In this document: positions 4,315 through 42,300 of the stretch, one piece after another
Layout of the letters: each line of letters starts with the position of its first letter
How positions within the stretch are numbered: the stretch's first letter is position 1
Assembly: GCF_025175675.1 (NCBI RefSeq)
Contig: NZ_JANIOA010000019.1
Coordinates: forward strand, 1-64,000
Direction of reading: 5' to 3'
Origin: Sedimenticola hydrogenitrophicus
Lineage (GTDB): Bacteria > Pseudomonadota > Gammaproteobacteria > Chromatiales > Chromatiaceae
DNA length: 64,000 nt
Position numbers and translations under genes: made by a program
Notes under the pieces: model-generated
Told to the model about the DNA's origin: nothing
The model's input: only the letters and a program-made list of their open reading frames with translations
The model's database searches: none

Positions 4315-5778
4315 ATGGTAGAGACAAAAATTGTTGGGGGAGTGATCTGGTCCATCATCATGAGATGGAGCATGAAGGCAATTGGACTGGTCAATACGGT
4401 TATTCTTGCCAGACTCCTCTCACCAGAAGATTTCGGCATTCTTGCCATGTCAGCGGTATTTATTGCCCTGATTGAAGAAATGTCCACAATCAATGTGTCT
4501 CTTTTACTCATAAGGACAAAGGAAAACTCGAAAGACCACAACAATTCAGCTTGGACTGTAAGCATATTGCAAGGAGTGATCATCGCCCTGCTCATGGTCT
4601 TGCTGGCACCTGCGGCAGCGGCCTACTTCAAGGAAGACAGAATCATAGACGTTATATATGTATTGGCGTTCTTGAAAATAGTCTTCAGCTTTAGAAACGT
4701 CGGTCTGATTATCGCCAGAAAAGAGCTGCAGTTTGCTTTTGATTTCCGCTTTATGATTTATGCAAGGTTGATACGCTTCGCCTGCGTAATCATGCTGGCA
4801 CTGTATTTAAAAAGCTATTGGGCTATGATATTTGGGTCTCTGGGTGCAGAAATCATCGCAGTTGTATTGAGCTATATCATGCATCCCTACCGACCCGGTA
4901 TCAGCTTTAGATATTTACGGGAGTACCTGAAATTTGCCATCGCAATGATCCCCATGGCTACCGCAAAACTACTGAACAACAAGTTCGATGTCATTGTGGT
5001 TGGAGGAAATTCGGGAACCAGCCTGATGGGTATCTATAATGTATCTAATGAGCTATCCTCGATTTTCACTAAAGAACTGGTAACGCCTGCCAGCCGAGGC
5101 CTTTTTCCAAACTTGTCCCGCCTGACAGAAGACAGAAAAATATTTACAGGCGTTTACAAAAAACTTATATATACCGCTACCGCCATCTGTATTCCTATAG
5201 GTGCCGGCATTTGGATGGTTTCCGACAACCTGGTATATGTGCTGCTTGGGCCAAAGTGGATCGAATCAATCATCTATTTGAAATGGCTCGGTGTGTATGG
5301 TGCGTTGGAGAGCATCACTTTCATTGTATCCGAGCATCCCCTCATCGCGCTTGGCCTGGAAAGAAAAGTTAACCTTCTGATGTGGTTTCGCCTCGCCATC
5401 AGAATGCTTTTCGTGGTCGCTGGTTACATGCTATTTGATATTATAGGCATTGCCATTGGCATGGCAGTATCTGCATTATTCAGCTTCTTGTCAGTCTCTT
5501 ATTTTGCATTGAAAGAATTGAATATCAGCTTCAAAGAAATCATCAAGTCACTAATGAGACCCAGCATCTCTACAACTATCATGGCATTATCGATTTATAT
5601 CATTAGTCCAGCGCTGGTCGATATGCCAAAAATCATAATGCTGCTCATTCAATCAGTCTCAGGCATGGCTATCTATACATCCGTACTTTTTCTAATGTGG
5701 AGACTCTTCGGAATGCCAGACGGTATAGAAAAAATGTTGATTGATATCATTAAAAAGAAGTTTTCCAGTGTTTCTTAA
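4315..5778 (+). CDS. Wzx-type oligosaccharide flippase
   Basis: Polytopic inner-membrane protein of 487 residues with about 12-14 hydrophobic segments, in the polysaccharide transporter (MOP/PST) superfamily. The N-terminus (GGVIWSIIMRWSMKAIGLVN, then ARLLSPEDFGILAMSAVF) is typical of these flippases, where a first helix is followed by an R-L-L-x-P-x-D/E-F-G loop. It would move undecaprenyl-linked repeat units across the inner membrane for polymerisation and export. It is the only flippase candidate in the locus. Like the upstream beta-propeller gene it is on the plus strand, facing the main operon, and it ends 33 nt from the convergent acyltransferase-like gene. Base composition is AT-rich like the neighbouring accessory genes. 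Confidence 0.9.
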   Translation: MVETKIVGGVIWSIIMRWSMKAIGLVNTVILARLLSPEDFGILAMSAVFIALIEEMSTINVSLLLIRTKENSKDHNNSAWTVSILQGVIIALLMVLLAPAAAAYFKEDRIIDVIYVLAFLKIVFSFRNVGLIIARKELQFAFDFRFMIYARLIRFACVIMLALYLKSYWAMIFGSLGAEIIAVVLSYIMHPYRPGISFRYLREYLKFAIAMIPMATAKLLNNKFDVIVVGGNSGTSLMGIYNVSNELSSIFTKELVTPASRGLFPNLSRLTEDRKIFTGVYKKLIYTATAICIPIGAGIWMVSDNLVYVLLGPKWIESIIYLKWLGVYGALESITFIVSEHPLIALGLERKVNLLMWFRLAIRMLFVVAGYMLFDIIGIAIGMAVSALFSFLSVSYFALKELNISFKEIIKSLMRPSISTTIMALSIYIISPALVDMPKIIMLLIQSVSGMAIYTSVLFLMWRLFGMPDGIEKMLIDIIKKKFSSVS

Positions 5779-8589: not shown

Positions 8590-9555
8590 TTATCCTAAGC
8601 GTAATGGATTATCACTAAACAGTGCTTGATAATCCGGCTCAGGGTCGTCCTGATAAAAATCCATGTCAAAATGTTTTAAAACAATCAACATGCGCTCGAT
8701 TTGACCCTTACTCAGAATCTTGTGCCAACCGGGAGTCTTCCTCTGTCGTGCATAATCATGGCTGGCTTTGGCACTGGGCTTGTGAAAGAGTTGATCTATA
8801 TGTTCGGGCATATCTAAGCCCAGTCTCTCGAATACAGGAACCAAAGCATCCGGCCCGTGGTTAAGCAACTGCTCATACGACACAAGTTGAAAAGGATATG
8901 GCCTTTCCATAGATAGCGGCAGATAATAGTCTATACACCAGCGTGCCGTGAACACTTCCTCTACAGTAGTCAGACCGGCCAATACCGATCGAAATTCCGG
9001 ATACCTCTCCGTGAACGCTTGATCGGCCTGAATATACATCGATAAGCTGTCACCCCACCCGCGTTTAATGATGGAAGCCAGCACCGCGCACGGATGTCGT
9101 AGCAGAAGTAGTGGGGGACGTATTGGGAATTTCTCGATTATCCATTCCAGCATAGGATTGGTACAGATATCTTTCACGACCCAACGATCGATATTATATT
9201 TTATGCGCATCGGGATGTGTGATGTGGTCCAGGGCGTTAACACTTGCCCGGTTAATACCCGGTGTATGTATTCTTCACCTTCTGGCCAGTCTGCTTCAGG
9301 GAACACATAGTTTCTGGTTTTAAAGCCAATTTTTCTCGCCTCTTTCATATTCTGAACATGAAAGGGCTCGAATAAAATAGTTGACCCGGGCACAGCCGCA
9401 ATCAACTCAGCCAGCCATGTAGTGCCACTTCTATTACATCCGGAAATGAGTACAGTATTTGATATGTCGTACTCCGATGCATGCCAAAATTTAAACAAGA
9501 ATGGATTGACATAGCCCCTTGCCAACGCCTTGGCATTGTCTGTATTAATCTTCAT
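8590..9555 (-). CDS. Sulfotransferase family protein (first copy)
   Basis: Protein of 321 residues with the PAPS-dependent sulfotransferase signature. The 5'-phosphosulfate-binding loop GCNRSGTTW is at residues 39-47, and the 3'-phosphate-binding segment LLLRHPCAVLASIIKRG is near 153-170. It would transfer sulfate from PAPS to a hydroxyl or amine, here most likely on the polysaccharide. No signal peptide or membrane anchor is visible, so it should act in the cytoplasm on nucleotide-sugar- or lipid-linked intermediates. It lies between the acyl carrier protein and TPR genes. A second sulfotransferase is encoded at 13.3-14.3 kb. The physiological acceptor is inferred from context only. Confidence 0.88.
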   Translation of the reverse strand: MKINTDNAKALARGYVNPFLFKFWHASEYDISNTVLISGCNRSGTTWLAELIAAVPGSTILFEPFHVQNMKEARKIGFKTRNYVFPEADWPEGEEYIHRVLTGQVLTPWTTSHIPMRIKYNIDRWVVKDICTNPMLEWIIEKFPIRPPLLLLRHPCAVLASIIKRGWGDSLSMYIQADQAFTERYPEFRSVLAGLTTVEEVFTARWCIDYYLPLSMERPYPFQLVSYEQLLNHGPDALVPVFERLGLDMPEHIDQLFHKPSAKASHDYARQRKTPGWHKILSKGQIERMLIVLKHFDMDFYQDDPEPDYQALFSDNPLRLG

Positions 9556-9666
9556 TGAATAAAAGGTACTTTAAAAGCATTATTCACAATAATAAGACTA
9601 CGAGAATCTGACACAGTCATCACCTGATAAAATATCGGCACTGTCACAAGCAAAACACATATCTAT

Positions 9667-10395
9667 TCATTGAGCAGATTTCAATCCATCAATCTTTTGT
9701 TTTAATCCAGGTATCGTATATCCATGCGAATAGGCCTGATCGGAATGATACTTGGCCTGCTTATAATCATTCAGGTCATAATAGGCGTGCGCAAGAAACA
9801 CATGAATATTCATGCTGTGGTTTCCAACATTTTCCAACCCAAGCTGTAATACCTCCACTGCCTTTTTAGCTTCATTTTCATACCGAAGCAATTTCGCCTT
9901 TTCGGTATAGGCATATGGTTGCTCTGGTTTTACAGTCAACGCATGATCAAGGATATCATATGCTTTCTTTTCCTCACCGCTTTTGTAAAGTGCCCTGGCC
10001 AGATAAGAAGACAACTCTGAATAATATGGCGCATCACTGTTCCCCTTGTAGTAGCTAAAGGAAAATTCAGATATTGCCCTTTCGTATGCCCAGCTTTTTT
10101 CCTTTTCCGATCCAGCTATGGCGGCGCGTTGTAACCAAATACGACCTGTACAAAAGTGCTGTACACCACGGTAATTTTCCCACCCCAGTATTCTTATCCA
10201 TTTATCCTGTTTCGAAGAAGATGCATATTTTTTAAATCTTGGATTTTTTCCTGCACCCAGTTGTGCATAACGTGTCTTGCAGTACTCTGGCCAAGTTATC
10301 CACTCTGAATCAGTCATTTCAATATCAAAGGAATATACTGGTGCTCCGGTCATCAGGAATAATATAAATACTACAAATCGTAAACAATATTTCAT
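9667..10395 (-). CDS. Exported TPR-repeat protein
   Basis: Protein of 242 residues starting at the ATG at 10395, which is preceded by AAGGAG and overlaps the stop of the upstream deacetylase (TAATG). A signal peptide (KYCLRFVVFILFLMTGAPVYS) indicates export to the periplasm. Tetratricopeptide-type helix pairs occur in the C-terminal half (DHALTVKPEQPYAYTEKAKL and HVFLAHAYYDLNDYKQAKYH). Similar proteins act as scaffolds in alginate, cellulose and XrtA-type export machines, so a scaffolding role in polysaccharide export or deacetylation is likely. There is no lipobox, so it should be soluble. Confidence 0.78.
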   Translation of the reverse strand: MKYCLRFVVFILFLMTGAPVYSFDIEMTDSEWITWPEYCKTRYAQLGAGKNPRFKKYASSSKQDKWIRILGWENYRGVQHFCTGRIWLQRAAIAGSEKEKSWAYERAISEFSFSYYKGNSDAPYYSELSSYLARALYKSGEEKKAYDILDHALTVKPEQPYAYTEKAKLLRYENEAKKAVEVLQLGLENVGNHSMNIHVFLAHAYYDLNDYKQAKYHSDQAYSHGYTIPGLKQKIDGLKSAQ

Positions 10396-11372
10396 TATCT
10401 CTCCTTGAGATACATAAGCATCATTCTGGCGAGAAATTTCTCTTCGGTAGTATCCCACGCTCTAAATCTCGGTAATTGAAAAATATCTGATTTGTTACTG
10501 CCCACACCCATCTCTGTAGTAAATGCTGCAGAATACCCACAGTCCCTAACCATCTTCACATGATCATCGTTAAAATCATTCAAATATCTGCCGTTAGGAT
10601 ATGCAAACAGTGTTATATCCTGTTTTAGAATTTCCTCCAGCATTTCCTTTCCATTCGCTATTTCACTTAGCGGCGTATCTTTTTCAAGCTTTGACAATAT
10701 TGGATGCGAAACCGTATGGGCACCTATTTCCACCCCATTGTTATTTAATTCGATCAACTCATCCCTACTTATCATCAACCTGGCGTAGCTTGCTTTCGTT
10801 AGTGATGCAATATAGTCAGCTTTATTTTCTCGCTCACTCTGGGGAAGATGCTTCAAACTGAGAATTATCTCTTGAGTTGTATTTTTTCGTGATTTGTCGG
10901 TATCAACCTTATACATACTCAAGCCGATGGACGTTAAATCTATCGTGTCCGCTGAATGCAATCGTATCGATTCAATTATTTTGTCATTCCACATTGTATT
11001 GCCATCAAGATAGCCTGTGGAAACAAATACTGTAGCTGGAACAGAATATTTTTTAAGAATCGGTAAAGCGTTTGTCAAATTGTCTCTATATCCATCGTCA
11101 AACGTAATTGAAAGTGCCCTGGATGGAAGCTGAGATGAGCGTAACCTGTTTACGGCTTCAGATAATGGCATAATGTTGAAATACCGACTAACGAGATCCA
11201 TCTGCCATTCAAATTTTTCCATTGATACTTCTCCCGGTCGCATGAAGTCGGTTTTATCCAGTACCCGGTGATAAATCATTACCTGGAGTTTCTTCGCCGA
11301 GCCTACGCCTGAAGCCATATTACCAAATGCCTTCAATGCCGGAAAAATAATATTTTTATTAAGCTGCTTCAT
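10395..11372 (-). CDS. Polysaccharide deacetylase (NodB family)
   Basis: Protein of 325 residues with the carbohydrate esterase 4 fold. The catalytic TFDDGY motif is at residues 90-95, and the metal-binding H-x-x-x-H appears as GAHTVSHPILSKL in the second half. FAYPNGRY supplies another conserved CE4 strand. It should remove N- or O-acetyl groups from polymer or lipid-linked sugar. No signal peptide is clear, so it may act in the cytoplasm or by an unusual route. It is distinct from the DUF3473-type deacetylase at 24 kb, so the locus has two. The stop codon overlaps the start of the TPR gene, consistent with coupled translation. Confidence 0.88.
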   Translation of the reverse strand: MKQLNKNIIFPALKAFGNMASGVGSAKKLQVMIYHRVLDKTDFMRPGEVSMEKFEWQMDLVSRYFNIMPLSEAVNRLRSSQLPSRALSITFDDGYRDNLTNALPILKKYSVPATVFVSTGYLDGNTMWNDKIIESIRLHSADTIDLTSIGLSMYKVDTDKSRKNTTQEIILSLKHLPQSERENKADYIASLTKASYARLMISRDELIELNNNGVEIGAHTVSHPILSKLEKDTPLSEIANGKEMLEEILKQDITLFAYPNGRYLNDFNDDHVKMVRDCGYSAAFTTEMGVGSNKSDIFQLPRFRAWDTTEEKFLARMMLMYLKER

Positions 11373-31441: not shown

Positions 31442-34099
31442 TCATTTCATGAACAGCGCGTCCCGCGTTATAGCGGACGGACGCCGGGCGTATATCAGGA
31501 CCAGTAGCGCGGGCAGGAGTAGCAGGTCAAAAAACAGGGCGGTGACCAGACCGATACTGGTCAGAAGCCCGAAATGGGTCGTCGGCACAAATTCCGAGAG
31601 TGTCAGCACGATGAATTGGGCACTCAGGATTATCGTCGTGGTCATGACCGCCCTGCCCGCCTGCTTATAGGTCTTGACCAGGGCGGCGATCGGACTGATA
31701 CCCTTACGCACACGACTGATGAAACCGTGATAGATATGGATGGTGTCATCCACGGCGATGCCGACCGCGACACTGGCAATCATGGCGGTTGCCATATCGA
31801 GCCACAGACCAAACATCCCCATGATGATAAAAATCAACAGGATAGGAGACAGGTTCGGTATCATGCAGAGCAGTGCACCGCCGATCGAACGCCACTGTAT
31901 CAGCATCAGCAGGAATATCAGCCCCAGCGCCCCGAACAGACTCTTCACCTGCCCCTCTATCAGCAGATCCTCCTGATCCGCAAACAGCCGCCCGAAACCC
32001 GCTATCTCCCATTCGACACCGTTTGAGGGGTGTTCGCCGAGATAGATTCTGATTCGCTCCATCAGTTCGGAAAGCGCATTGGCACCGTGCACATTCACAT
32101 TAAGGCTCACATGGGCGATGCGGTAATCTCGATCGACAAAATCAAACAGATCCTCCCCGTCATAGACCAGCAGATACTGGCTGATCAATTCCATATTATC
32201 CGGGATACGCCGGTACGCGGGATCCTCAGCATTGAAGCCCCAGTGCATCTCCTCGACAAAATCGGCCATGGAGATACTCTTATCCACCTCGGGTTGCGCC
32301 TCCGCCCAGCGCTGAAACGCCCGCATGTCATTCAGCACCCGGGGCTGCTTCAACCCACCCCGCTGTTTTGCCGTGAAAACAATATCCAGGGAGGCAGTGC
32401 CTACCAGCTTCTCCTCTATATGTTGCGTGGCCTGGCGAAGCGGGTGCTGGGGATAAAAAAACTCCTGGATATTGGTCTCGACAACAATATTGCCAATCTG
32501 AGGCAAGAGTAGCCCAAGCCCTACACCGACCACACCGACCACATAGAGCGGATAACGGACACCGATACGAAGCAGTCTGCTGACCAGTCGGTCCAGGCTG
32601 GCCAGTCCCGATTTCCGGCTGGGCCAGGGTGCATAGTCAAACCGGGCAAAGATATTCGGCACCAGGTGGATCACTACAAAATAGATCAGCACCACCCCGG
32701 CGGCCGATATCAGCCCGAACACCTTGATCGGCGGGATCGGGCTCAGACCGAGCGATGAGAGGCCGGCCACCGTGGTCAGGGCGGTGTACAGCGCCGGTCG
32801 TTGCACTTCGTTGAGTGCACTGCGTACCCGGCGTGGTCCTGTCAATCCGCGTTTTGAAGCAAAATGGAGGGCGTTGAACAGATGCACCAGCGCAGCCACT
32901 GTCAAAGCCGACAGCAGCGGTGGAATGATACTGGATATCAGGTTGAACGGTTGATTGAAAACCACATAAAACGCCACCGTGGAGCTGACTACCACCCCGA
33001 TAACCACACCGGCTACTATCACCGCAAGCCAGCGATGGAACAGCCACCAGATCAGGAACAGACCGATCACCGTGGTGGCGGGTATGAAGATCATATTATC
33101 CCGCAACATCGATCTCATCTGCGCCACATCGGTGGTGATCTGCCCAGCCATACTGGTCAGATAGCCAGCCAGGCGAGCCTTGCGGACCTCCTCGAGCATG
33201 GCATCCTCCAGGGCCAACCGTTCGAGGCTCGAGTCGATCTTGACCGGTATTACCAGCATCGCAACCGCACTGCCGTCCGCTGCCACCAGGGCGTTTCTGG
33301 CAAAGCGGTCTGAGAGTGCACGCTCCAGCCTCTGCGGTGGCCTGGTCTTCTCCAGATTCCGGACACTGAGCAGCGGCTCAACCAGAAAGCCCTCTTCGGT
33401 CCCGTGAATATGATCCTGCGTGGTCATATTCACCACGTCATCAATCAGTGGATGGTCAGCCAGCGACTCGGCCAGGGCATTCAATGACCTGGCGAATCCG
33501 TCCGAATAGAGCGCCACTCCCTCGAACAGCAGTAGGACGACCTGATCGCTGGGAAAATGGCGCCGCAGTTCATCATCAATGATCACCGAAGGCGCGTCCG
33601 CCGGCAGGTAGACCTTGGGGGCGTTGTTGATGTTGAGATTCAGCAGCAGCCCATTGGGCAGTACCGTGAATAAAAACAGGAACAGCACACTGAAGTAGTA
33701 TTTCCAGGGCAGATGCAGAAAAATATACTTCAACTGCGTGTCCGCTTCGGTGGTGAGCGAAAACTCGATCGACTCCTCGCCATCGGCCAGGATAGAGCAG
33801 GAATTCATGATGGCCACCAGACGGTCGCCGTCATTTTTCAGTAAGGTGACTTTGGCCCGGGGATATTCCCTGGCGTTCCGGAGCACCCTCCCCGCCTCGG
33901 AAAAGTGCTCCCGCAGCCGATCCTTGTGACGGTCAATCACCAGGTCGAGAACCGGTACTGCCTCAAGCTCACTGAAAGATTGATAGCCCAGAAGGCTGAG
34001 AAAGGCCGGATTGGCATAGACAAACATGCCATCATGCTGAATCGCTATCGGTTTGCGATCGTGATCATAGCGGGCGTATAGGGTGGTGTCAGCTTGCAT
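31442..34099 (-). CDS. RND/MMPL-family exporter with N-terminal PAS domain
   Basis: Protein of 885 residues. Residues about 12-118 form a PAS-like domain (GMFVYANPAFLSLLGYQSFSE) before the first membrane helix (about 131-153), so it would lie in the cytoplasm. The remainder is an RND superfamily transporter of the MMPL/HpnN type, with two repeats of a large periplasmic loop followed by a bundle of membrane helices. The motif SVAVGIAVDDTIHI near the C-terminus contains the proton-relay Asp pair seen in such proteins. Related exporters move lipids such as hopanoids to the outer membrane. The LolA-like and porin-like genes upstream on the same strand fit a lipid or hydrophobic-compound trafficking role. 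The PAS fusion is unusual and suggests ligand or redox gating. Confidence 0.85.
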   Translation of the reverse strand: MQADTTLYARYDHDRKPIAIQHDGMFVYANPAFLSLLGYQSFSELEAVPVLDLVIDRHKDRLREHFSEAGRVLRNAREYPRAKVTLLKNDGDRLVAIMNSCSILADGEESIEFSLTTEADTQLKYIFLHLPWKYYFSVLFLFLFTVLPNGLLLNLNINNAPKVYLPADAPSVIIDDELRRHFPSDQVVLLLFEGVALYSDGFARSLNALAESLADHPLIDDVVNMTTQDHIHGTEEGFLVEPLLSVRNLEKTRPPQRLERALSDRFARNALVAADGSAVAMLVIPVKIDSSLERLALEDAMLEEVRKARLAGYLTSMAGQITTDVAQMRSMLRDNMIFIPATTVIGLFLIWWLFHRWLAVIVAGVVIGVVVSSTVAFYVVFNQPFNLISSIIPPLLSALTVAALVHLFNALHFASKRGLTGPRRVRSALNEVQRPALYTALTTVAGLSSLGLSPIPPIKVFGLISAAGVVLIYFVVIHLVPNIFARFDYAPWPSRKSGLASLDRLVSRLLRIGVRYPLYVVGVVGVGLGLLLPQIGNIVVETNIQEFFYPQHPLRQATQHIEEKLVGTASLDIVFTAKQRGGLKQPRVLNDMRAFQRWAEAQPEVDKSISMADFVEEMHWGFNAEDPAYRRIPDNMELISQYLLVYDGEDLFDFVDRDYRIAHVSLNVNVHGANALSELMERIRIYLGEHPSNGVEWEIAGFGRLFADQEDLLIEGQVKSLFGALGLIFLLMLIQWRSIGGALLCMIPNLSPILLIFIIMGMFGLWLDMATAMIASVAVGIAVDDTIHIYHGFISRVRKGISPIAALVKTYKQAGRAVMTTTIILSAQFIVLTLSEFVPTTHFGLLTSIGLVTALFFDLLLLPALLVLIYARRPSAITRDALFMK

Positions 34100-34222
34100 G
34101 CGAAGTCAGATGTGAGCCCAGGTCATTGGAATACACTCCTGCAATATTGATTCAAATTCGGCACGACCTCTGCCCAAATTTACCTTATTACCCATCTAAC
34201 TCAACCATCATCAGGAACAACC

Positions 34223-34438
34223 TTAGCCGCCAATAGACGCAAATGAACACGAATAAGCCCGTTCTTCGGGGTAGGATGCCGGTGAGGCACGAACCGCATC
34301 AAGCCCTACCGTGAACGATGCGGTTCGCAAGCTCACCGGCATCCTACGTCACCGGCAAGCACCGTGGTCTGGATGAAGCGGCCATTCCCCAACAGGATTA
34401 ACCGCGTTATTTGCGTTTATTCGCTTTTATTCGCGGCT
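34223..34438. repeat. Palindromic intergenic repeat (nested inverted repeats)
   Basis: A perfect 16-bp inverted repeat, GTAGGATGCCGGTGAG (34271-34286) / CTCACCGGCATCCTAC (34332-34347), contains an inner perfect 11-bp pair, CGAACCGCATC / GATGCGGTTCG. Outside it, imperfect arms (34223-34256 and 34403-34438) made of GCAAATGAACACGAATAA-like units face each other. It fills the 406-nt gap between the exporter and the porin-like gene. It looks like a REP/BIME-type or MITE-like repeat. Confidence 0.7.
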
Positions 34439-34505
34439 TTGTAAACGGTATCTGACTTTAGCAGTAGTCTGTTGGGTAATCAGGCAAATTCATAAAATCT
34501 TCGGG

Positions 34506-35972
34506 TCAGAACTTTGCGCGCCACCCGACCGCGACCAGTGAATTGTCCTGATGGAAGGCGCCGGGCGTACCGGCGGCACCCTCAAAGTAGTGCGCCTCCA
34601 GATACACCTCCTGGGAGTCCCAGCCGATGTAGGCGAGCTCGGGATTGAGATAGAGATCATGGGTATCCAGCCCCTTATAAAAGCGCCCCTTCACCCGCCA
34701 TTGATCACGGGCAAAAGGAACCTCAAACGAGCCGCCAAACAGATAGACCTCGGTCCGGTCTATCACCGCTGGCGCGTCAATATGATTGAACCCGGTCAAC
34801 TGCAGATTGACCCGGGCATCGCCATCCCCCGGAAAGAACTCCACACCGGCTCCCCAGTTCAGGCTCTTGACCGTGTCGAATGTGCCATCGGCGCGGGTAA
34901 TCGGGGCATCACTCAGCCAGCCTGCCTCAAGGCGCCAGATCGCGCCCAGCGCCTCCACACCGAGATCACCGCCGAGTAACCAACTACGTGGATATCTTGC
35001 CTCGAGCACTCCACGGGAACTGTTGTAGCTGAAATAGGGGATCGATTGGCGAACCTTCTGCACGGTCAGGGCGTAGTCCAACCCCTCCCCCGTGCCGCTG
35101 TAACGAATGCCGAACCCACCATCCGAATCCGAAGCATTGACATCCACCGGGGCACTCTGGATCAGTGCCGTGCTGGCCGGGGTGGATTTCAAACCAAATA
35201 TCTGCCCGGATTCCCGGTTAACCGGGAACCAGACACTGTCAACGCCTGGCAACTCAGCTTCCCTGAAATAGGGCAGAAAGACCACATCCAGCTTTTTCTC
35301 CCCGAAGAAGTGTTCATAGCGGATCGCCGGCGATGCGCGCCTGCGATCGGCCAGGTCATCCAGGATATAGCGGGTCAGGTCATGGGTGCTGAGGCGGTCG
35401 GTAGGGGGAAATTCATCAATCCGTCCCCAAACTATTTTTTGCGCCCCAACGGTCAACCTGAAGTTATCCGCACGATAACGGATGAAGGTCTCATCATAAT
35501 CAAGCGTGGCATGTTCCCAATCCTGACTGCCGTGCTGGAAATAGCCGTCCAGCCGTACGGAGGCCTGCAGGTCCCAGCGACTGGAGGGGCTCCAGAGCGC
35601 CGTTGCCTGGCCATGCAGATAACCCTGGCCGCTGGCATTTGAAGCGGATCGGTTGAACACCCCGTACTCCGCCCACAAATCATCCAGCTTGAGGGAGAGA
35701 TCGCTACGCCCGGCAATCGCCTGGTCGCTCCCCGGAGTGGACTTTTGCTCCTCCGGCTCAAGCAGTATCTCGTCACTCCCCGGTTCTTCAATGATCAACA
35801 ACTCTTCCGTCGATAAGGCAGGCCGCCCTTGATCAATCACCGGCTCCTCTTCAATGATCAACAGCTCCTCATCCGGCGCCGGTTCCGCGGCCGACGCGGG
35901 CAGTGGCGACAATGCGATACAGAACCAGGCTAATAGTGTGGTGCTGTCAAATTTATTGTTCAAGTGCGCCAT
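34506..35972 (-). CDS. Porin-like outer-membrane protein (DUF1302-like) with acidic repeats
   Basis: Protein of 488 residues. A signal peptide ends at PLPASAAEP. A mature acidic segment then carries two EELLIIEE repeats and a related EILLEPEE. The remainder reads as a beta-barrel: alternating aromatic strands, VGAQKIVWGRIDEFPPTDRL as in DUF1302-type proteins, and a terminal strand ending WRAKF. It is flanked by the LolA-like gene upstream and the RND exporter downstream, a combination seen in envelope-lipid or hydrophobic-compound export loci. The acidic repeat arm probably sits in the periplasm and may bind a partner such as the exporter. Confidence 0.75.
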   Translation of the reverse strand: MAHLNNKFDSTTLLAWFCIALSPLPASAAEPAPDEELLIIEEEPVIDQGRPALSTEELLIIEEPGSDEILLEPEEQKSTPGSDQAIAGRSDLSLKLDDLWAEYGVFNRSASNASGQGYLHGQATALWSPSSRWDLQASVRLDGYFQHGSQDWEHATLDYDETFIRYRADNFRLTVGAQKIVWGRIDEFPPTDRLSTHDLTRYILDDLADRRRASPAIRYEHFFGEKKLDVVFLPYFREAELPGVDSVWFPVNRESGQIFGLKSTPASTALIQSAPVDVNASDSDGGFGIRYSGTGEGLDYALTVQKVRQSIPYFSYNSSRGVLEARYPRSWLLGGDLGVEALGAIWRLEAGWLSDAPITRADGTFDTVKSLNWGAGVEFFPGDGDARVNLQLTGFNHIDAPAVIDRTEVYLFGGSFEVPFARDQWRVKGRFYKGLDTHDLYLNPELAYIGWDSQEVYLEAHYFEGAAGTPGAFHQDNSLVAVGWRAKF

Positions 35973-36009
35973 ATGGCTATGTTCCCCTGTTCAGGTTGCC
36001 TGCCCCGAC

Positions 36010-36831
36010 TCAGGGGCGATAGGCCTTCTCATTGGTATCGTCGGTAAGATCACGCCGGGTGAAGAGCCGGTCGGGCAGATCCTGGTCGTACTTTATATTT
36101 TCGGTCAGCAACTGGGTACGGTGCCCGGATTCCAGGTCATACATGGTGCTTTCCAGGATGCTCCAGTAGCCCTGGATTTTCTTGATTCTTCTGGCGGTAA
36201 GCATTTTGCTCGGCTTCTCCCTGCCCCGCTCGAACAGCTCCACTTTCAACGGGATCAGGATCTTGCGGTAGATACAGCTGACACGCTTGGAATAGACCGA
36301 GTTATCCGGATCCCTGGGGGTACTGACCAGGATCTCGCAGGGCACCTTTCCCACACTGCCCGTGCCCCGCAGGTAGTGATGATCCATGTCGACCTCCCGG
36401 TCGAGCAGGTCTTCATAAAAAAAGTCGGAACCGACGAAACGGCCGCCTTTTCTTGAAGATGAAATTCGCCGGACCTTATTCAGCGCCGGCAGATAGAGCC
36501 ATTGGTCACTCGCGTCCCCGGGGTGATCCTGGGTCAGCAGCCCGGTTCCCGCGATATCATCCGGCTGAATGAAGCGCATCAGGGTCCAGCGCTCTCCGGC
36601 GCCCTTCTCCTTGGCGTAGCTGTAGAGCACACGCTGCCTGGATTGACTCGCCTTTCCCTGAAGCGTCATCACCACCAGGGCACTGAAATCATTACCATTG
36701 GGTCGATCGTACACCGCCTGGGCCAACGCCGTCCCCGCGGGATTGCTCAGAGGCTCACTCCCAAGAACGGCGACAGGCGACATCAGCAAACAGGCTGCAA
36801 TCATCCGTCGGGCTAAGCCTTGTGTGACCAT
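36010..36831 (-). CDS. LolA-like outer-membrane lipoprotein-sorting protein
   Basis: Protein of 273 residues, starting at the ATG at 36831 so that a signal peptide (RMIAACLLMSPVAVLG) is N-terminal; the longer frame has an unlikely extension. The sequence SDQWLYLPALNKVRRISSSR followed by GSDFFYEDLL is characteristic of the LolA-like family that accompanies MMPL exporters. It should be periplasmic and shuttle a lipid or lipoprotein between the RND protein and the outer membrane. It is the first gene of the three-gene set, ending 37 nt before the porin-like gene. Confidence 0.85.
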   Translation of the reverse strand: MVTQGLARRMIAACLLMSPVAVLGSEPLSNPAGTALAQAVYDRPNGNDFSALVVMTLQGKASQSRQRVLYSYAKEKGAGERWTLMRFIQPDDIAGTGLLTQDHPGDASDQWLYLPALNKVRRISSSRKGGRFVGSDFFYEDLLDREVDMDHHYLRGTGSVGKVPCEILVSTPRDPDNSVYSKRVSCIYRKILIPLKVELFERGREKPSKMLTARRIKKIQGYWSILESTMYDLESGHRTQLLTENIKYDQDLPDRLFTRRDLTDDTNEKAYRP

Positions 36832-37756
36832 GGTTTCGCTTCTACCTTGACGAGAACAGACCGGCTCTCTTAATAATCCATATTTGAAACATTCTATAAC
36901 TAGTTGAATATATTGCAAGTTAATTTAATTAACTGCCATTTTTTCATCAGGTATCCCACGCCTGAGCCGAGCCCCACTCTCTCCATTCACATTATCCAAG
37001 CCGGCGAATCCATTTCAGAAATCAGGTATCTCATTGATTATGCGAGCATTAATAATAAGACGTTGAGAAAGCTATCGCAGTTCGGTAACAACCAGAACCA
37101 CAGGTACCGAAACCACACGCCAACCGAAGGTCAATGGGGATCCGCTCATCCAGCCACCCGACCACCACTCCCCGGCGTTTTTAACCGGTTGTAAAAATCA
37201 TTTATAGTTTAGCCCCGGATGGCGGCAACACCCTGAAAGGTTTAGCCAGACCGACGCGAAACCTGGCCCATATCACCATGCCCTACACCTGTCGATTTTT
37301 TTTACACGGTACATTTAACCCGCAAATAATTATTCATCAACTTATTGATAATATTGACTATAAATCTAGTGGCTTGATATTTGCATCGATAGTGACAGAT
37401 CACGCAGACGCCTTATACTGATAGATGTGGCGGGATATTTCCGACTTCGGTGCTTAAAGTCAGCTAATAGAACTTGCCATGCCTTAACCGCACAACTATT
37501 TGCCTGGTGTCGCTAACCACCGGATAATTAGGGGATTATTATGATCGTGGGCGAACACCCTACTCCGAGCCATAGAAACCGGTAAGGGATTATTTGATAT
37601 CTATCGGATATTTTTACACTTATTCTGCGAACATTTTCCAAGCGTTGAATAAGTGCTACCTTTCTACAATATGAGGGACAATCCTGAGGCCAGATCAGGA
37701 ACAGGCTCGAGAAGCCACTCGATTTTAAGCTCAGATAACCTATAGAGTAACAAGTA
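36832..37756. other. Long intergenic region between divergent genes
   Basis: 925 nt without a supported gene. It lies between the LolA-like gene (minus) and the Tat-exported protein (plus), so it should hold two divergent promoters. The middle is AT-rich with runs such as TTTTTTTACACGG. Open frames of 96 and 135 codons on the two strands lack recognisable protein features. No riboswitch motif that I know was recognised. Confidence 0.5.
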
Positions 37757-38353
37757 ATGTCGAAGAATCGAGAGACAAACAAGGATTTAAAGCTGGATGG
37801 TCCGATTGAGAAAGGCATCTCATCGAGTCGTAGGCAATTTACCAAGGCGAGCCTGCTCGCCTCCCCTGTATTGATGTCGGTGGTATCACGCCCCGTGTTT
37901 GGCGTGGGTTGCCTCTCGAACATGCTCTCTGGCAACCTGTCCGACCCGAATCGTGGTGAATGTAACCTGGGCCTTAGCCCCGGCTACTGGAAGGAACACC
38001 CGGAAGCTTGGCCGATGGCGTCCACTTATCGACAAGACGGTACGTTGCCCACCGGCCAAAACGACTGCCTCTCGGGCGGTGGCCCCTTCGCGCAGTGGGA
38101 GTGCGGTGGCGGTGCGCTATTCAACAGCTATTTCACGTCCGGTCCGCTGGACGCAAACAACCGTACGATGTATGAAATCCTGTGCACGGAAGCGGGTAGT
38201 GACGAGTTCCATATCATCGCCGCGCTCCTGAATGCGATGACCGATCCCAACTATGTTCTGAGTGTGGATCAAGTGAAGACGTTGTGGGCCGATCCGACGC
38301 TGGGCGGTCAAGTGACCAACTTCAAGTCATTCCTGAACAGCACCTGGACCTGA
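37757..38353 (+). CDS. Tat-exported protein with GYWKEHPEAWP motif
   Basis: Protein of 198 residues. A 24-residue polar leader precedes the twin-arginine motif SRRQFTK (24-30) and a hydrophobic stretch (ASLLASPVLMSVVSRPVFG). The mature part contains LGLSPGYWKEHPEAWP (71-86), a motif seen in many secreted proteins of unknown role, and five Cys (52, 69, 104, 116, 143). No PEP-CTERM tail is present. Tat export implies folding, or cofactor or modification attachment, before export. It ends 56 nt from the convergent nucleotidyltransferase gene of the HprK/PqqD-like operon and could be the modified target of that operon. Function unknown. Confidence 0.75.
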   Translation: MSKNRETNKDLKLDGPIEKGISSSRRQFTKASLLASPVLMSVVSRPVFGVGCLSNMLSGNLSDPNRGECNLGLSPGYWKEHPEAWPMASTYRQDGTLPTGQNDCLSGGGPFAQWECGGGALFNSYFTSGPLDANNRTMYEILCTEAGSDEFHIIAALLNAMTDPNYVLSVDQVKTLWADPTLGGQVTNFKSFLNSTWT

Positions 38354-38408
38354 CGACCAGGCACACTCATCATTTTGTCTGACCGCAAACCGCCGGATAA
38401 GGGTCAAA

Positions 38409-39542
38409 TCAGCCGGGATCCCGGTGTCGCGGATTGTTGGCGATAAAGCGCTGTACTTCCCCCGGCAGCTCTCCCTCATTTTCCCCCGTCAGCGCCTTCC
38501 TCACCAGGTGGGGAATGAGCAGTTTCATCGGCATGCGCAGATAGTGCGAACGCACATAGAGCGCCCAGCGCGCCTGCCCGGTGCCCCACATCCCGCAACT
38601 TGCATGATCCGGTCGCAAGGCGCGGAGAAACAGACGATCCATGGTTGAACCGAGCAGGCTCCCGGGGAGCTGATCACGCATCCACAATGTCACATCTTCG
38701 GGAATGTCCACTGCCAACAGGAGCTGGACATAACGTAACCCATAAATCAGTGGACGCACCAAGTCCATCTCCACCGCCCGGTCACACAGCGCCGGCCAGA
38801 AACCGGCGCGCCCCGCAAAGTGCCGCAGCAGTTCGGCGATATCCACCAGATCCCGCAGCCCATGCTCCAGTTCGCCATCATGGAACAGGTGCGTTGCACT
38901 GTGCAGGATCAGGTCCAGGTCACACAACCAGTAGAGATCCCCCTGCCCCCCATCGTTGGTTGCCTGCGCCAGGAGTTTTTGCGGGTCGGGCTTGAGTCTC
39001 GCCGTCAGCGGCAGGATTGAGTGGTGGATATCCAGCACCGTCTGGCGCTTGATATGTCTCATCGGGGGGATTTCATGCATCCAGGTACGATAGTAGCGTT
39101 GATCGTATGCACTGCTATGGGTAGTACGCCACCCCCACGTCAACAGTCGCTTCTCTACATCCTCGACCGCTGACCTGGGCACCAGGATATCGATATCATG
39201 AAACAGCCGCCCGCGGCTGATCGGCAGATCCGCCAGGACATAGGCGGCCCCCTTGAGCAGGACAATGGGGATGGCGAGGCTGTACAGCGCTTCCTGCAGC
39301 TGCGAGATCTCCCAGCGGACCGCCAGCACGCTGCGCTGGGTAATCAGGTTCGCGGCCCTCAGATGATGGGCCGGCCCTTCCGGTATCGCGTCCCCCAGCC
39401 CCCGTTCCTGTAACACCCGGTGAAGATGGGCAAGCAGGTTTGCCGCCTTTGCCTGGCGCATCAGGAGATCCCAGTCGGCCGCGGAGAACCGGGTTATCCT
39501 ATCCGGTGATACCAGGACCTGTATGATAAGCGGCTCAACCAT
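38409..39542 (-). CDS. Nucleotidyltransferase-fold protein (NTP_transf_5-like)
   Basis: Protein of 377 residues. Residues about 105-145 contain IPIVLLKGAAYVLADLPISR followed by LFHDIDILVPRSAVEDVEKRL, which carries the nucleotidyltransferase-fold D-x-D pair (D-I-D). LDIHHSILP and ILHSATHLFHDGE further on fit the uncharacterised pfam14907-like family. It might transfer a nucleotide or act on a nucleotide-linked substrate. It is the last gene of a three-gene operon, starting 2 nt after the HprK-like kinase stop. Such proteins recur with HprK-related kinase A and a PqqD-like protein, often near XrtA loci. Confidence 0.85.
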   Translation of the reverse strand: MVEPLIIQVLVSPDRITRFSAADWDLLMRQAKAANLLAHLHRVLQERGLGDAIPEGPAHHLRAANLITQRSVLAVRWEISQLQEALYSLAIPIVLLKGAAYVLADLPISRGRLFHDIDILVPRSAVEDVEKRLLTWGWRTTHSSAYDQRYYRTWMHEIPPMRHIKRQTVLDIHHSILPLTARLKPDPQKLLAQATNDGGQGDLYWLCDLDLILHSATHLFHDGELEHGLRDLVDIAELLRHFAGRAGFWPALCDRAVEMDLVRPLIYGLRYVQLLLAVDIPEDVTLWMRDQLPGSLLGSTMDRLFLRALRPDHASCGMWGTGQARWALYVRSHYLRMPMKLLIPHLVRKALTGENEGELPGEVQRFIANNPRHRDPG

Positions 39543-39544
39543 AA

Positions 39545-40468
39545 TCAGGCGGGGACCTCCGAATCCGCAATCAGCCGCTCCATGATCGGCAGCGCCTCCT
39601 CCAGTTGCGAATACTCCAGCGAGAAGACCGGACAGCTGTTGATCAGTGATGTTGCCGACTCAAATCCGACCTTACCCAGGATATGGGTGTTGAACGCGTT
39701 CTCCTGTATCTCCAGTAGCGCGCTGTTTTTGGCTTTCTCGGTCAGACGGGTACGGCTGCCCGCTCTAAATTTCGGGAAGACGATCGCATGCGGCCGGCTG
39801 GTTACGCCGGCCAGCCGGATGCTCGTTGCCGATGGTTTCAGATGAGCCACCGTTCCCTTCGCCGTGTCTTTCGCCGCCAGCCCGATTTCCGCCATAGCCG
39901 AGAAATCTCGAATAATCCCTATCGATTCATTTTTCAGGCTGACGGGCCTCGGCACCGGGGTGATCGCCCGTGTCGCCGGATCCAGCAATACCATCTCATC
40001 CGACAACAGGCGCCAGCCACGCAGCGCCATGGCCGCGCACAGCGTGCTCTTTCCGGAGCCGGGCACGCCCGGCATGATGATCCCGCGGCCCGCTTTCTCG
40101 AGCACCGCGGCATGGATAATCAGATAGCGATGCGCGGTGGTGGCGATGCACCAGTTGAGACCCCACTCGAACATGGCGAAGGCATGGATATAGGGCAGCG
40201 GCTTGAACGGGGCGTATTCGTCCAGGAGGAAATGTACCTGGGGTTTTACCCAGCGCCGCAGACCGCCGGCATTTTTCAGCGTGATATGAAAATCAAAGAA
40301 CCGCGCGGATTCCGTGGTCTCGTACTCGGAGTAAAAAAAGGCGACGTGTCGCAGGAGATCGGGAATGGTGGAGCGCAGATTGATCCAGAAAGGCCCGATC
40401 TGTATCGGCAACCCCTTTCCGGTCAATTGGCCGGCCATGTCACGCTGGCTGAGATCGGCTACTTTCAC
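39545..40468 (-). CDS. HprK-related kinase A
   Basis: Protein of 307 residues starting at GTG, overlapping the PqqD-like gene by 4 nt (GTGA). The P-loop GVPGSGKSTLCAAMALRGW and the following LLSDEMVLLD resemble the catalytic core of HPr kinase/phosphorylase, but the protein lacks that enzyme's N-terminal domain. It should phosphorylate a protein or peptide. The family name is from memory and the true substrate is unknown. The genes on either side (PqqD-like and nucleotidyltransferase) form its conserved unit. Confidence 0.9.
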   Translation of the reverse strand: MKVADLSQRDMAGQLTGKGLPIQIGPFWINLRSTIPDLLRHVAFFYSEYETTESARFFDFHITLKNAGGLRRWVKPQVHFLLDEYAPFKPLPYIHAFAMFEWGLNWCIATTAHRYLIIHAAVLEKAGRGIIMPGVPGSGKSTLCAAMALRGWRLLSDEMVLLDPATRAITPVPRPVSLKNESIGIIRDFSAMAEIGLAAKDTAKGTVAHLKPSATSIRLAGVTSRPHAIVFPKFRAGSRTRLTEKAKNSALLEIQENAFNTHILGKVGFESATSLINSCPVFSLEYSQLEEALPIMERLIADSEVPA

Positions 40469-40794
40469 AGCGAGTCTGAGATAACCAGGCCCAGGGAGCG
40501 GAAGGTAAGCAGCGAGAGGTGCACGGCATCCGCCAACTCGCTGTTGGCGTCAATCTCAAAGAAATCGGCGGCGGATCGCGTCAGCTCTGAGGGTGTCTGC
40601 CGTTCCAGCTGCAGCCGTTTGAGCAGAAACTCACCCAGCGGATTCAGCATCAGGGTATCGCCGGACCCCTGATGAAAAAGCACCGCCTCCTCCTCATCCG
40701 GCCAGATGCTCCAGCAAAACTGATCCGGGGCATTGGCAAACCATCTCCTCTCCATTTTTTCGGCTCTATCCATCCCACTCATAGCGCTGATCAC
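40465..40794 (-). CDS. PqqD-like peptide chaperone of the HprK-related kinase A system
   Basis: Protein of 109 residues starting at GTG, with AGGT 4 nt upstream; in-frame ATGs at 40782 and 40773 are alternatives. The core EEEAVLFHQGSGDTLMLNPLGEFLLKRL matches the PqqD winged-helix fold, which in peptide-modification pathways binds the leader of the precursor peptide. It is the first gene of the operon with the HprK-like kinase and nucleotidyltransferase. By analogy it could present a peptide or protein to the kinase. No short RiPP-like precursor was found next to it; the nearest exported candidate is the Tat protein at 37.8 kb. Confidence 0.87.
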   Translation of the reverse strand: MISAMSGMDRAEKMERRWFANAPDQFCWSIWPDEEEAVLFHQGSGDTLMLNPLGEFLLKRLQLERQTPSELTRSAADFFEIDANSELADAVHLSLLTFRSLGLVISDSL

Positions 40795-41249: not shown

Positions 41250-42260
41250 TCACTGGAAGCCATCCGGATTGGCGCGCTGCCATCGCCAGCTGTCCCGGCA
41301 CATCTGCTCCAATTCACGTTCCGCTCGCCAGCCAAGTTCGACCGATGCTCGCGCCGGGTCCGCATAGCAGGCGGCTATATCGCCAGGCCGGCGACTGTCG
41401 ATCCGGTAGGGGACCATCCTGCCGCTTGCCTGCTCAAAGGCACGCACCATCTCCAGCACCGAGTAGCCGCGACCGGTTCCGAGATTATGGGTGATCACCC
41501 CGGGGTGCCCGGACAGTTTGTCCAGCGCCGCGAGATGCCCCCGGGCAAGATCGACCACATGAATATAGTCCCGCACCCCGGTACCATCGGCAGTCGGATA
41601 ATCACCGCCAAAAATCGACAACCGTTCCAGCCGGCCCGCGGCCACCTGTGAGATATAAGGCATCAGGTTATTCGGGATACCGCCCGGGTCTTCCCCGATC
41701 AACCCGCTCTCATGGGCACCCACCGGGTTGAAATAACGCAGGATGGAGATATCCCAGGCATCATCGGCGGCATGGAGATCCCGCAGCATCTCCTCGATCA
41801 TCAACTTCGACCGACCGTAGGGATTGGATGCCGACAGGGCGAAATCCTCTCCGATGGGCAGGGAGACCGGATCACCATAGACCGTCGCGGAAGAGCTGAA
41901 TACCAGGCGCTTTACGCCCGCCGCCGCCATCGATTCCAGCAGCGTCAGGCTACCGGTGATATTGTTCTGGTAATAGGCCAACGGCAATCTGACGGACTCT
42001 CCGACCGCCTTCAGTCCGGCGAAATGGATCACGGCATCGATACCGTCCCGGGAGAAGATCCGGGTCACTGTATCCCGGTCCCTGATATCCCCCTCGACAA
42101 AAGAGACGCGCCGGCCGGTGATGTCGGCAATCCGGTCCAGGGAGATCCGGCTGCTGTTGCAGAGGTTATCGATGACCACCACCTGATGACCGGCCTCCAG
42201 GAGCTCCACACAGGTGTGAGATCCGATGTAGCCGGCGCCGCCGGTAACCAGTACTTTCAT
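41250..42260 (-). CDS. galE: UDP-glucose 4-epimerase
   Basis: Protein of 336 residues interconverting UDP-glucose and UDP-galactose (and perhaps the N-acetyl forms) with bound NAD. The ATG at 42260 follows AGGA at 7 nt and gives the normal [21 protein letters not shown]-terminus. The catalytic triad region is SSSATVYG with the Y-x-x-x-K of [12 protein letters not shown], and the substrate-binding RYFNPVGAH is present. It supplies galactose-type precursors that the polysaccharide locus could use, although it is about 10 kb away and separately transcribed. Confidence 0.95.
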
Positions 42261-42300
42261 TGGATTATCCTGACTTCCATTGAGCACTTATTGAGATGGG

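Follow-up and report, generated by a model that had tools for sequence, protein, structure and literature searches.

What does a compact operon for a PqqD-like protein, an HprK-like kinase and a nucleotidyltransferase-like protein act on? The question is raised by a stretch of 64,000 nucleotides (nt) of the Sedimenticola hydrogenitrophicus genome (contig NZ_JANIOA010000019.1, positions 1 to 64,000; hereafter the window; genome size 4.71 Mb), in which such an operon faces a gene for a protein with a twin-arginine translocation (Tat) signal. An original prediction from the sequence alone described these four open reading frames (ORFs) and tentatively joined them in a modification pathway. All four are present and their coordinates agree, as are the features ascribed to the Tat protein: 24 residues before R25-R26, five cysteines and a GYWKEHPEAWP motif. 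We find that operon and Tat protein are linked far beyond this genome, and we consider it reasonably probable that they form one pathway, guided by a recognition element (RRE) of the kind found in ribosomally synthesized and post-translationally modified peptide (RiPP) systems, in which a kinase and a nucleoside triphosphate (NTP) transferase modify putative Tat-exported proteins, akin to the tailoring of LPP (linear polyphosphorylated peptide) and paeninodin precursors. The features of the locus are as follows (positions in the window):

37757 to 38353, + strand: Tat-signal precursor, the putative substrate (a type b partner, see below), 198 amino acids (aa)
37829 to 37834, + strand: twin-arginine R25-R26 in the leader of the Tat protein; R26 is invariant and R25 is kept in at least 90% of 69 aligned partners
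37916 to 37942, + strand: S54 to S62 (SNMLSGNLS), candidate modification site; S54 and S58 are invariant in 69 rows
37982 to 38014, + strand: GYWKEHPEAWP, start of the body domain, a domain also found in proteins not adjoining a kinase
38409 to 39542, − strand: NTP_transf_5 (PF14907) protein of nucleotidyltransferase fold, 377 aa; D116 and D118 are invariant in 47 rows (the window and 46 of 74 transferases)
39545 to 40468, − strand: HprK-related kinase A (TIGR04352), 307 aa
40043 to 40063, − strand: kinase P-loop, PGSGKST; K140 is invariant in 35 rows (35 kinases, from 73 listed loci and the window)
40465 to 40794, − strand: PqqD_rel_X (TIGR04353), predicted RRE-type leader-binding protein, 109 aa

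The PqqD and HprK genes overlap by 4 nt, 2 nt separate the HprK gene from the transferase gene, and the convergent stop codons of the transferase and Tat genes lie 55 nt apart. Scanning for promoters and terminators yielded nothing beyond the level of shuffled sequence. The kinase scores 373.2 bits against TIGR04352 (HprK_rel_A; cut-off 200), the PqqD-like protein 41.2 bits against TIGR04353 (PqqD_rel_X; cut-off 35) and 25.2 bits against PF05402 (PqqD; cut-off 23.4), and the product of the third gene 184.6 bits against PF14907 (NTP_transf_5; cut-off 31.2). Because the kinase and the PqqD-like protein exceed their curated NCBIfam cut-offs and the third, adjoining gene is a PF14907 transferase, the trio is the set that NCBIfam names ‘HPr-rel-A’ (TIGR04353 is titled ‘HPr-rel-A system PqqD family peptide chaperone’). 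The SynChlorMet cassette also has an HprK-like and PqqD-like pair, but the window's proteins match its ScmC and ScmD models (TIGR04249 and TIGR04248) at only 24.2 of 125 and 17.7 of 100 bits, far under their cut-offs. Neither Pfam nor NCBIfam has a family that matches the window's Tat protein at E ≤ 1.

Searching with this Tat protein (E ≤ 0.01) in an order-level sample of 210 genomes, 74 of which contain TIGR04352 above its cut-off, gave relatives at 21 places in 20 genomes, 18 of them within 2 kb of a kinase. For a broader view, kinase loci were taken with their flanks from the order genomes, and 80 more loci from named genomes; from these 156 loci we removed seven identical duplicates and one fusion below the cut-off (L131, described below), leaving 148 counted loci that form 147 clusters at 95% DNA identity. 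At most of them a gene for a small protein lies directly upstream of the PqqD gene, and its product has a polar N-terminus, a twin-arginine leader (RRxLxKxA...APVIxTLxSGxAxA or ...LASRPVxA/G) and a variable body. We built profiles for these partners from ORFs picked by motif rather than by position, one for type b, the window's type (69 of 90 proteins), and one for type a (40 of 52). Among the 15,827 ORFs of the loci, the profiles matched 150 at E < 1e-4, all in a span from −2191 to +3596 relative to the start of the kinase gene, none inside the operon and none away from its edges. A partner adjoins the operon in 141 of the 148 kinase loci (140 clusters; 51 loci with type a, 90 with type b), counting one locus with only a partner fragment at a contig end (L124): it lies upstream on the same strand in 128, downstream on the same strand in seven, two of which hold two partner copies, and convergent downstream, as in the window, in six. 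At six of the seven partnerless loci the contig breaks off fewer than 700 nt upstream, and the seventh, from a Nitrosospira metagenome-assembled genome (L216), is intact without a partner. At three loci (L186, L198 and L066) one operon has two adjoining partner genes.

The same association is seen between genomes. Partner profiles matched 72 of the 74 kinase-positive order genomes versus seven of the 136 kinase-negative ones, a count that is not independent because the profiles were built from order and named loci. Three of those seven matches are body-only (G053, G137, G139), two are leader-like without a kinase (G112, G118), and two adjoin a kinase-like match below the cut-off (G047, G111); in one order genome (G027) the partner lies within another contig, apart from its kinase. 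We therefore rely on a separate, phylum-wide sample of 299 Pseudomonadota genomes, 51 of them with a kinase above the cut-off, which are absent from the partner profiles except for the window's own genome (one of the 51); the kinases of its 50 new loci are never more than 83.5% identical in DNA to those of the first set. Here the profiles (E ≤ 1e-4) matched 43 of 51 kinase-positive versus two of 248 kinase-negative genomes (Fisher p 3e-41), the latter two being a body-only match (G493) and one that by eye looks like the signal of a binding protein of the ABC-transporter type (G237). Of the eight misses, five genomes carry a further partner variant with the C-terminus GFTCFASLQMPRG (by eye), one partner was found with our own profile (L291), one kinase lies at a contig end (G398), and in one genome no partner was found (G423); 43 becomes 49 of 51 only on adding the five by-eye partners and L291, with G398 and G423 remaining. 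By locus, a partner is present in 42 of the 48 that could be evaluated, 37 found by profile hidden Markov model (one, L265, on the opposite strand) and five by eye. The linkage in 141 of 148 loci and this co-occurrence together reject a chance neighbour, and the count of co-occurrence and adjacency that the original prediction had proposed as its check thus comes out far beyond chance.

Kinase and partner also descend together. On a kinase tree of 141 rows, partner type needs a single change (SH-aLRT support 98), versus a mean of 41.9 when types were shuffled, with none of 500 shuffles as low; both types are present in the window's own family, yet the tree splits by type. The PqqD gene behaves similarly. 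With both sets pooled, a partner is present in 183 of 190 evaluable loci, and PqqD was undetected by its own profile in six of the seven partnerless loci versus two of the 183 with a partner (Fisher p 3e-9). Five phylum genomes have a kinase with neither partner nor PqqD adjoining it: in all five the partner lies on another contig, in four of them with PqqD directly adjoining, and the transferase is present at four of the five kinase loci. Such travelling of PqqD with the partner fits the behaviour expected of a leader-binding adaptor. It would also suit a role in Tat quality control, in which PqqD is a chaperone for a strongly conserved signal peptide and phosphorylation holds back or releases export; however, known Tat chaperones act on cofactor-containing enzymes and work without a kinase or transferase, and the conserved serines of the partners lie after the presumed cleavage site, so that we give this explanation very little credence.

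Those serines suggest what the operon does. In the 69-row type b alignment, whose mean column identity is 16%, the only invariant columns are R26, S54 and S58, and in the 40-row type a alignment the invariant residues are the twin arginine, a proline, a threonine, the alanine of the presumed cleavage site, a serine at +3 and a C-terminal serine (these calls rest on MAFFT alignments). The type a C-terminal motif, [ST]CxxS[FLIVMW], is found in 33 of the 52 first-set proteins (a further 12 have SxAxxS) and in 30 of 31 type a proteins from the separate phylum sample, where shuffles gave a mean of 0.13 and a maximum of 2. One minimal type a partner (L275, positions 5188 to 5517 of its locus, − strand) consists of the leader and about 20 further residues carrying both conserved serine sites. 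Because the invariant residues outside the leader are serines, modification of the Tat protein, as originally predicted, is the best reading, with S54 and S58 as candidate acceptors in the window. They argue against a different division of labor, in which the kinase's target is a small molecule or whatever the transferase makes, and the Tat protein serves as its carrier or receptor, with PqqD doing no more than delivering that protein. P-loop kinases of this kind can have substrates other than proteins, and the transferase fold resembles that of small-molecule nucleotidylyltransferases such as ANT(2''), both of which would accommodate such a role. In sister systems, however, HprK-like kinases phosphorylate a precursor serine (PMC9266682, PMC13381572), and we judge the small-molecule alternative improbable.

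The partners have the hallmark of Tat substrates, a twin arginine followed by a hydrophobic stretch, with the arginine pair invariant in the 40 type a rows, and by their setting they would be cell-surface or extracellular proteins. The Tat signal model PF10518 matches none of the 69 type b and one of the 40 type a proteins. At E ≤ 0.01, Pfam matches none of the 69, and ZipA_C and TAT_signal match one member each of the 40; NCBIfam gives one member each of two families for type b and of one family for type a. Apart from these few single-member matches, the partners lie outside any Pfam or NCBIfam family model, unlike the named HPr-rel-A families, and in two plasmid records (Vibrio alfacsensis and Sphingomonas) they are annotated as hypothetical proteins. 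A structural model of the window's Tat protein has a mean predicted local distance difference test score (pLDDT) of 68.8, with low confidence over most of the N-terminal quarter, and its best match in the PDB has an E value of 3.3, so we assign it no fold.

By family the operon is HPr-rel-A, and in its proposed working principle it stands close to LPP and lasso-peptide phospho-tailoring. LPP clusters of Bacillota contain a discrete RRE, an HprK-like kinase and an NTP transferase without a cyclase, and precursors of 35 to 200 aa with a conserved N-terminus and a variable C-terminus; Ser3 of the core receives as many as four phosphates from the kinase LppK, and in LppA a Pro stands at −13, a Val at −11 and the acceptor at +3 (PMC13381572). 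The same three proteins and a precursor with a conserved N-terminus are found here, and the type a layout is like that of LppA: the distance from the proline to the serine is 15 residues, equivalent to −13 and +3, in 48 of 52 proteins and 14 in the other four, Ile or Val stands at P+2 in 47 of 52, and Ala stands three before the serine (AxxS) in 52 of 52. In the separate type a set the exact layout fits 20 of 31, and a 15-residue Pro–Ser spacing anywhere in the N-terminal part occurs in 21 of 31 (shuffles: mean 2.1, maximum 6). Unlike in LPP, the leader is a twin-arginine signal, type a precursors can be as long as 365 aa (by script-assigned start codons), and a body with cysteines and different serine positions set the window's type apart. 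In lasso clusters, HPr-kinase homologues phosphorylate the precursor's C-terminal serine, and the phosphate can then carry one or two hexoses, an addition associated with PsmN, whose annotation is nucleotidyltransferase (PMC9266682, PMC8498205); an HPr kinase, a PqqD and an uncharacterized nucleotidyltransferase have also been reported in rumen bacteria alongside lasso clusters (PMC7533575). The trio studied here thus resembles the paeninodin and pseudomycoidin tailoring set of PqqD/B1, HPr-kinase homologue and nucleotidyltransferase (PMC9266682, PMC8498205, PMC7533575), although the C-terminal serine motif is present in type a only and lies a few residues before the end.

The LPP parallel also raises the possibility that the partner is a strict RiPP precursor, whose modified part would be excised as a small peptide and whose variable middle would serve as a spacer. 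The fixed ends and variable middle of the partners would fit, as would the minimal partner L275 and the processing of LPP precursors to a 45-residue core (PMC13381572). LPP leaders carry a YxxP motif and are cut by the SpI-like LppS, with the MsbA-like LppD as exporter (PMC13381572), but a Pfam scan of eight flanking ORFs (about 31.4 to 46.1 kb) revealed no SpI-like or other signal-peptidase-like protein, no transglutaminase-like protein and no MsbA-like exporter, nor the macrolactam cyclase or B2 peptidase of lasso clusters; it did show an alpha/beta hydrolase (PF12146) some 2 kb away from the operon. In addition, Cys and Trp are conserved in the type b bodies, which are partly folded in the model. 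We consider excision of a small peptide unlikely, while taking it more seriously than the other alternatives. The original prediction had stated that no short precursor is present at the locus; in the pathway that we favor, the Tat protein itself would be the precursor.

The LPP and lasso parallels, together with the type a Pro/Ser layout, lead us to propose a pathway in which PqqD would recognize the Tat leader and the fixed serines would receive phosphate from the kinase before export. In this scheme the PqqD-like RRE protein would bind the precursor's leader in the cytoplasm, the leader doubling as the Tat signal peptide, and would present the precursor to the HprK-like kinase. The kinase would then phosphorylate, and possibly polyphosphorylate, S54 and/or S58 or their equivalents in type b partners, and in type a partners the serine at +3 after the presumed cleavage site and/or that of the C-terminal motif. 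Next, the NTP_transf_5 protein would attach a nucleotidyl, sugar or sugar-phosphate group to the phosphate, and the decorated, possibly folded protein would leave by the Tat route and be cut by signal peptidase. For the kinase, a profile search of PDB sequences gave only weak matches, the best (E 0.0063) being an HprK. The transferase model (pLDDT 91.1) has a Pol-beta-type nucleotidyltransferase fold with the invariant D116-x-D118; its best match is MenT1 (Z 13.2), with ANT(2'') at Z about 11, and Foldseek returned no match at E ≤ 0.001. The transferase probably extends the phosphate, but its step is the least certain since lppN deletion caused no visible change in the LPP host (PMC13381572).

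Several observations weigh against this scheme. The window's Tat gene is convergent to the operon and hence not co-transcribed with it. An overlapping type b alignment of 60 rows adds N159 to the invariant residues. Of 91 type b proteins, 65 contain SGNxS exactly, and a loose serine pattern matched three of six divergent ones from the phylum sample. Counted from the presumed cleavage site, the type b serines stand at about +5 and +9, not at +3 as in the LPP core. The P[VIL] pair occurs in just 51 of 91 type b leaders, and the aromatic residue of the lasso/LPP [Y/W]xxP motif is not there: none of the 52 type a rows has Tyr or Trp at P−3, and the window protein has Leu at that position before P37. 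The phylum genome G423, in which no partner was found, has the kinase, PqqD and the transferase, and our own transferase profile, which found 147 of 148 first-set loci, found just 38 of 50 phylum loci. Finally, the genome searches scored at most 10 to 17 candidates per genome, so that matches can be missed in kinase-positive or kinase-negative genomes.

The GYWKEHPEAWP motif, which the original prediction had used to define the Tat protein, turned out not to be diagnostic. We reject it as a marker of the system: the body domain occurs without the leader or serine motif at six loci not adjoining a kinase, and type a partners are recognized by their leader and serine sites. In none of the six do the 40 residues preceding the GYW/GFW site contain SGNxS or SxxxS[GA], and three of the six genomes have the kinase elsewhere. 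At loci L310 to L315 the GYWKxHP body is part of larger proteins, some of them adhesin-like with repeats (by eye).

Related arrangements were seen elsewhere. In two other genomes (L300 and L303) kinases below the cut-off (72 and 86 bits to our own kinase profile) adjoin a PqqD-like gene (by eye) and a small Tat-signal protein (SRRxFLKKAxYVPPxLLSF...), so the cassette–partner layout may extend beyond HprK_rel_A. On the Vibrio alfacsensis plasmid NZ_CP140104.1 (L316), a frame in the unannotated region between partner and kinase (about 4687 to 4974) reads as a short PqqD-like protein (by eye). The window's own genome contains a second cassette (L131; contig C86:6000-20827, positions 9359 to 10609), in which an NTP_transf_5-like gene (by eye) is followed by the PqqD–HprK fusion mentioned above, which scores 101.7 bits against TIGR04352, below the cut-off. 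This cassette adjoins genes for Fur and type IV pili (identified by eye), and no Tat partner was seen by eye among its neighbors of at least 90 aa. In the window, the Tat gene adjoins a run on the − strand (31442 to 36918) that encodes an MMPL transporter carrying a PAS domain at its N-terminus, a 488-aa protein for which Pfam gave no significant match, and a lipoprotein-sorting protein resembling LolA. The operon adjoins an NAD-dependent epimerase/dehydratase gene (41250 to 42287, − strand; GalE-like by eye), a sugar-nucleotide enzyme whose proximity is perhaps due to chance.

How new is this system? The original prediction held that a kinase-modified exported protein would be largely undescribed. 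The trio itself is named in NCBIfam and has relatives that have been studied in lasso and LPP pathways (PMC13381572); the Tat partner has no family name. We found no description of HprK-related kinase A, HPr-rel-A, PqqD_rel_X, GYWKxHP or NTP_transf_5/PF14907 in the open-access literature, an absence that carries little weight. No Tat-exported target of such cassettes appeared by title or abstract opening among the open-access matches listed, and two RRE surveys (PMC7470986, PMC12710340), searched by term, gave neither HPr nor a kinase. The new part is thus the substrate candidate, a broad Tat-signal protein family unnamed in Pfam and NCBIfam.

Our analysis supplies a candidate substrate family and predicted modified residues for an NCBIfam-named cassette for whose target we found no family model, and ties that cassette to polyphosphorylated-peptide and lasso pathways. 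It suggests that the cassette tags a Tat-signal protein before it exits the cell, and makes three questions testable: the target of HprK-related kinase A, the action of NTP_transf_5 proteins on phosphoserine, and the use of a Tat signal as a RiPP leader. We would give roughly even chances to the wider proposition that the partners form a class, widespread in the Pseudomonadota and so far undescribed, of exported phosphoproteins or phosphoglycoproteins: proteins of about 100 to 300 residues that a kinase and a nucleotidyltransferase decorate at fixed serines before export, with the Tat signal serving as a RiPP-type leader for a PqqD-like RRE. If true, it would extend RiPP logic to folded, Tat-exported proteins.

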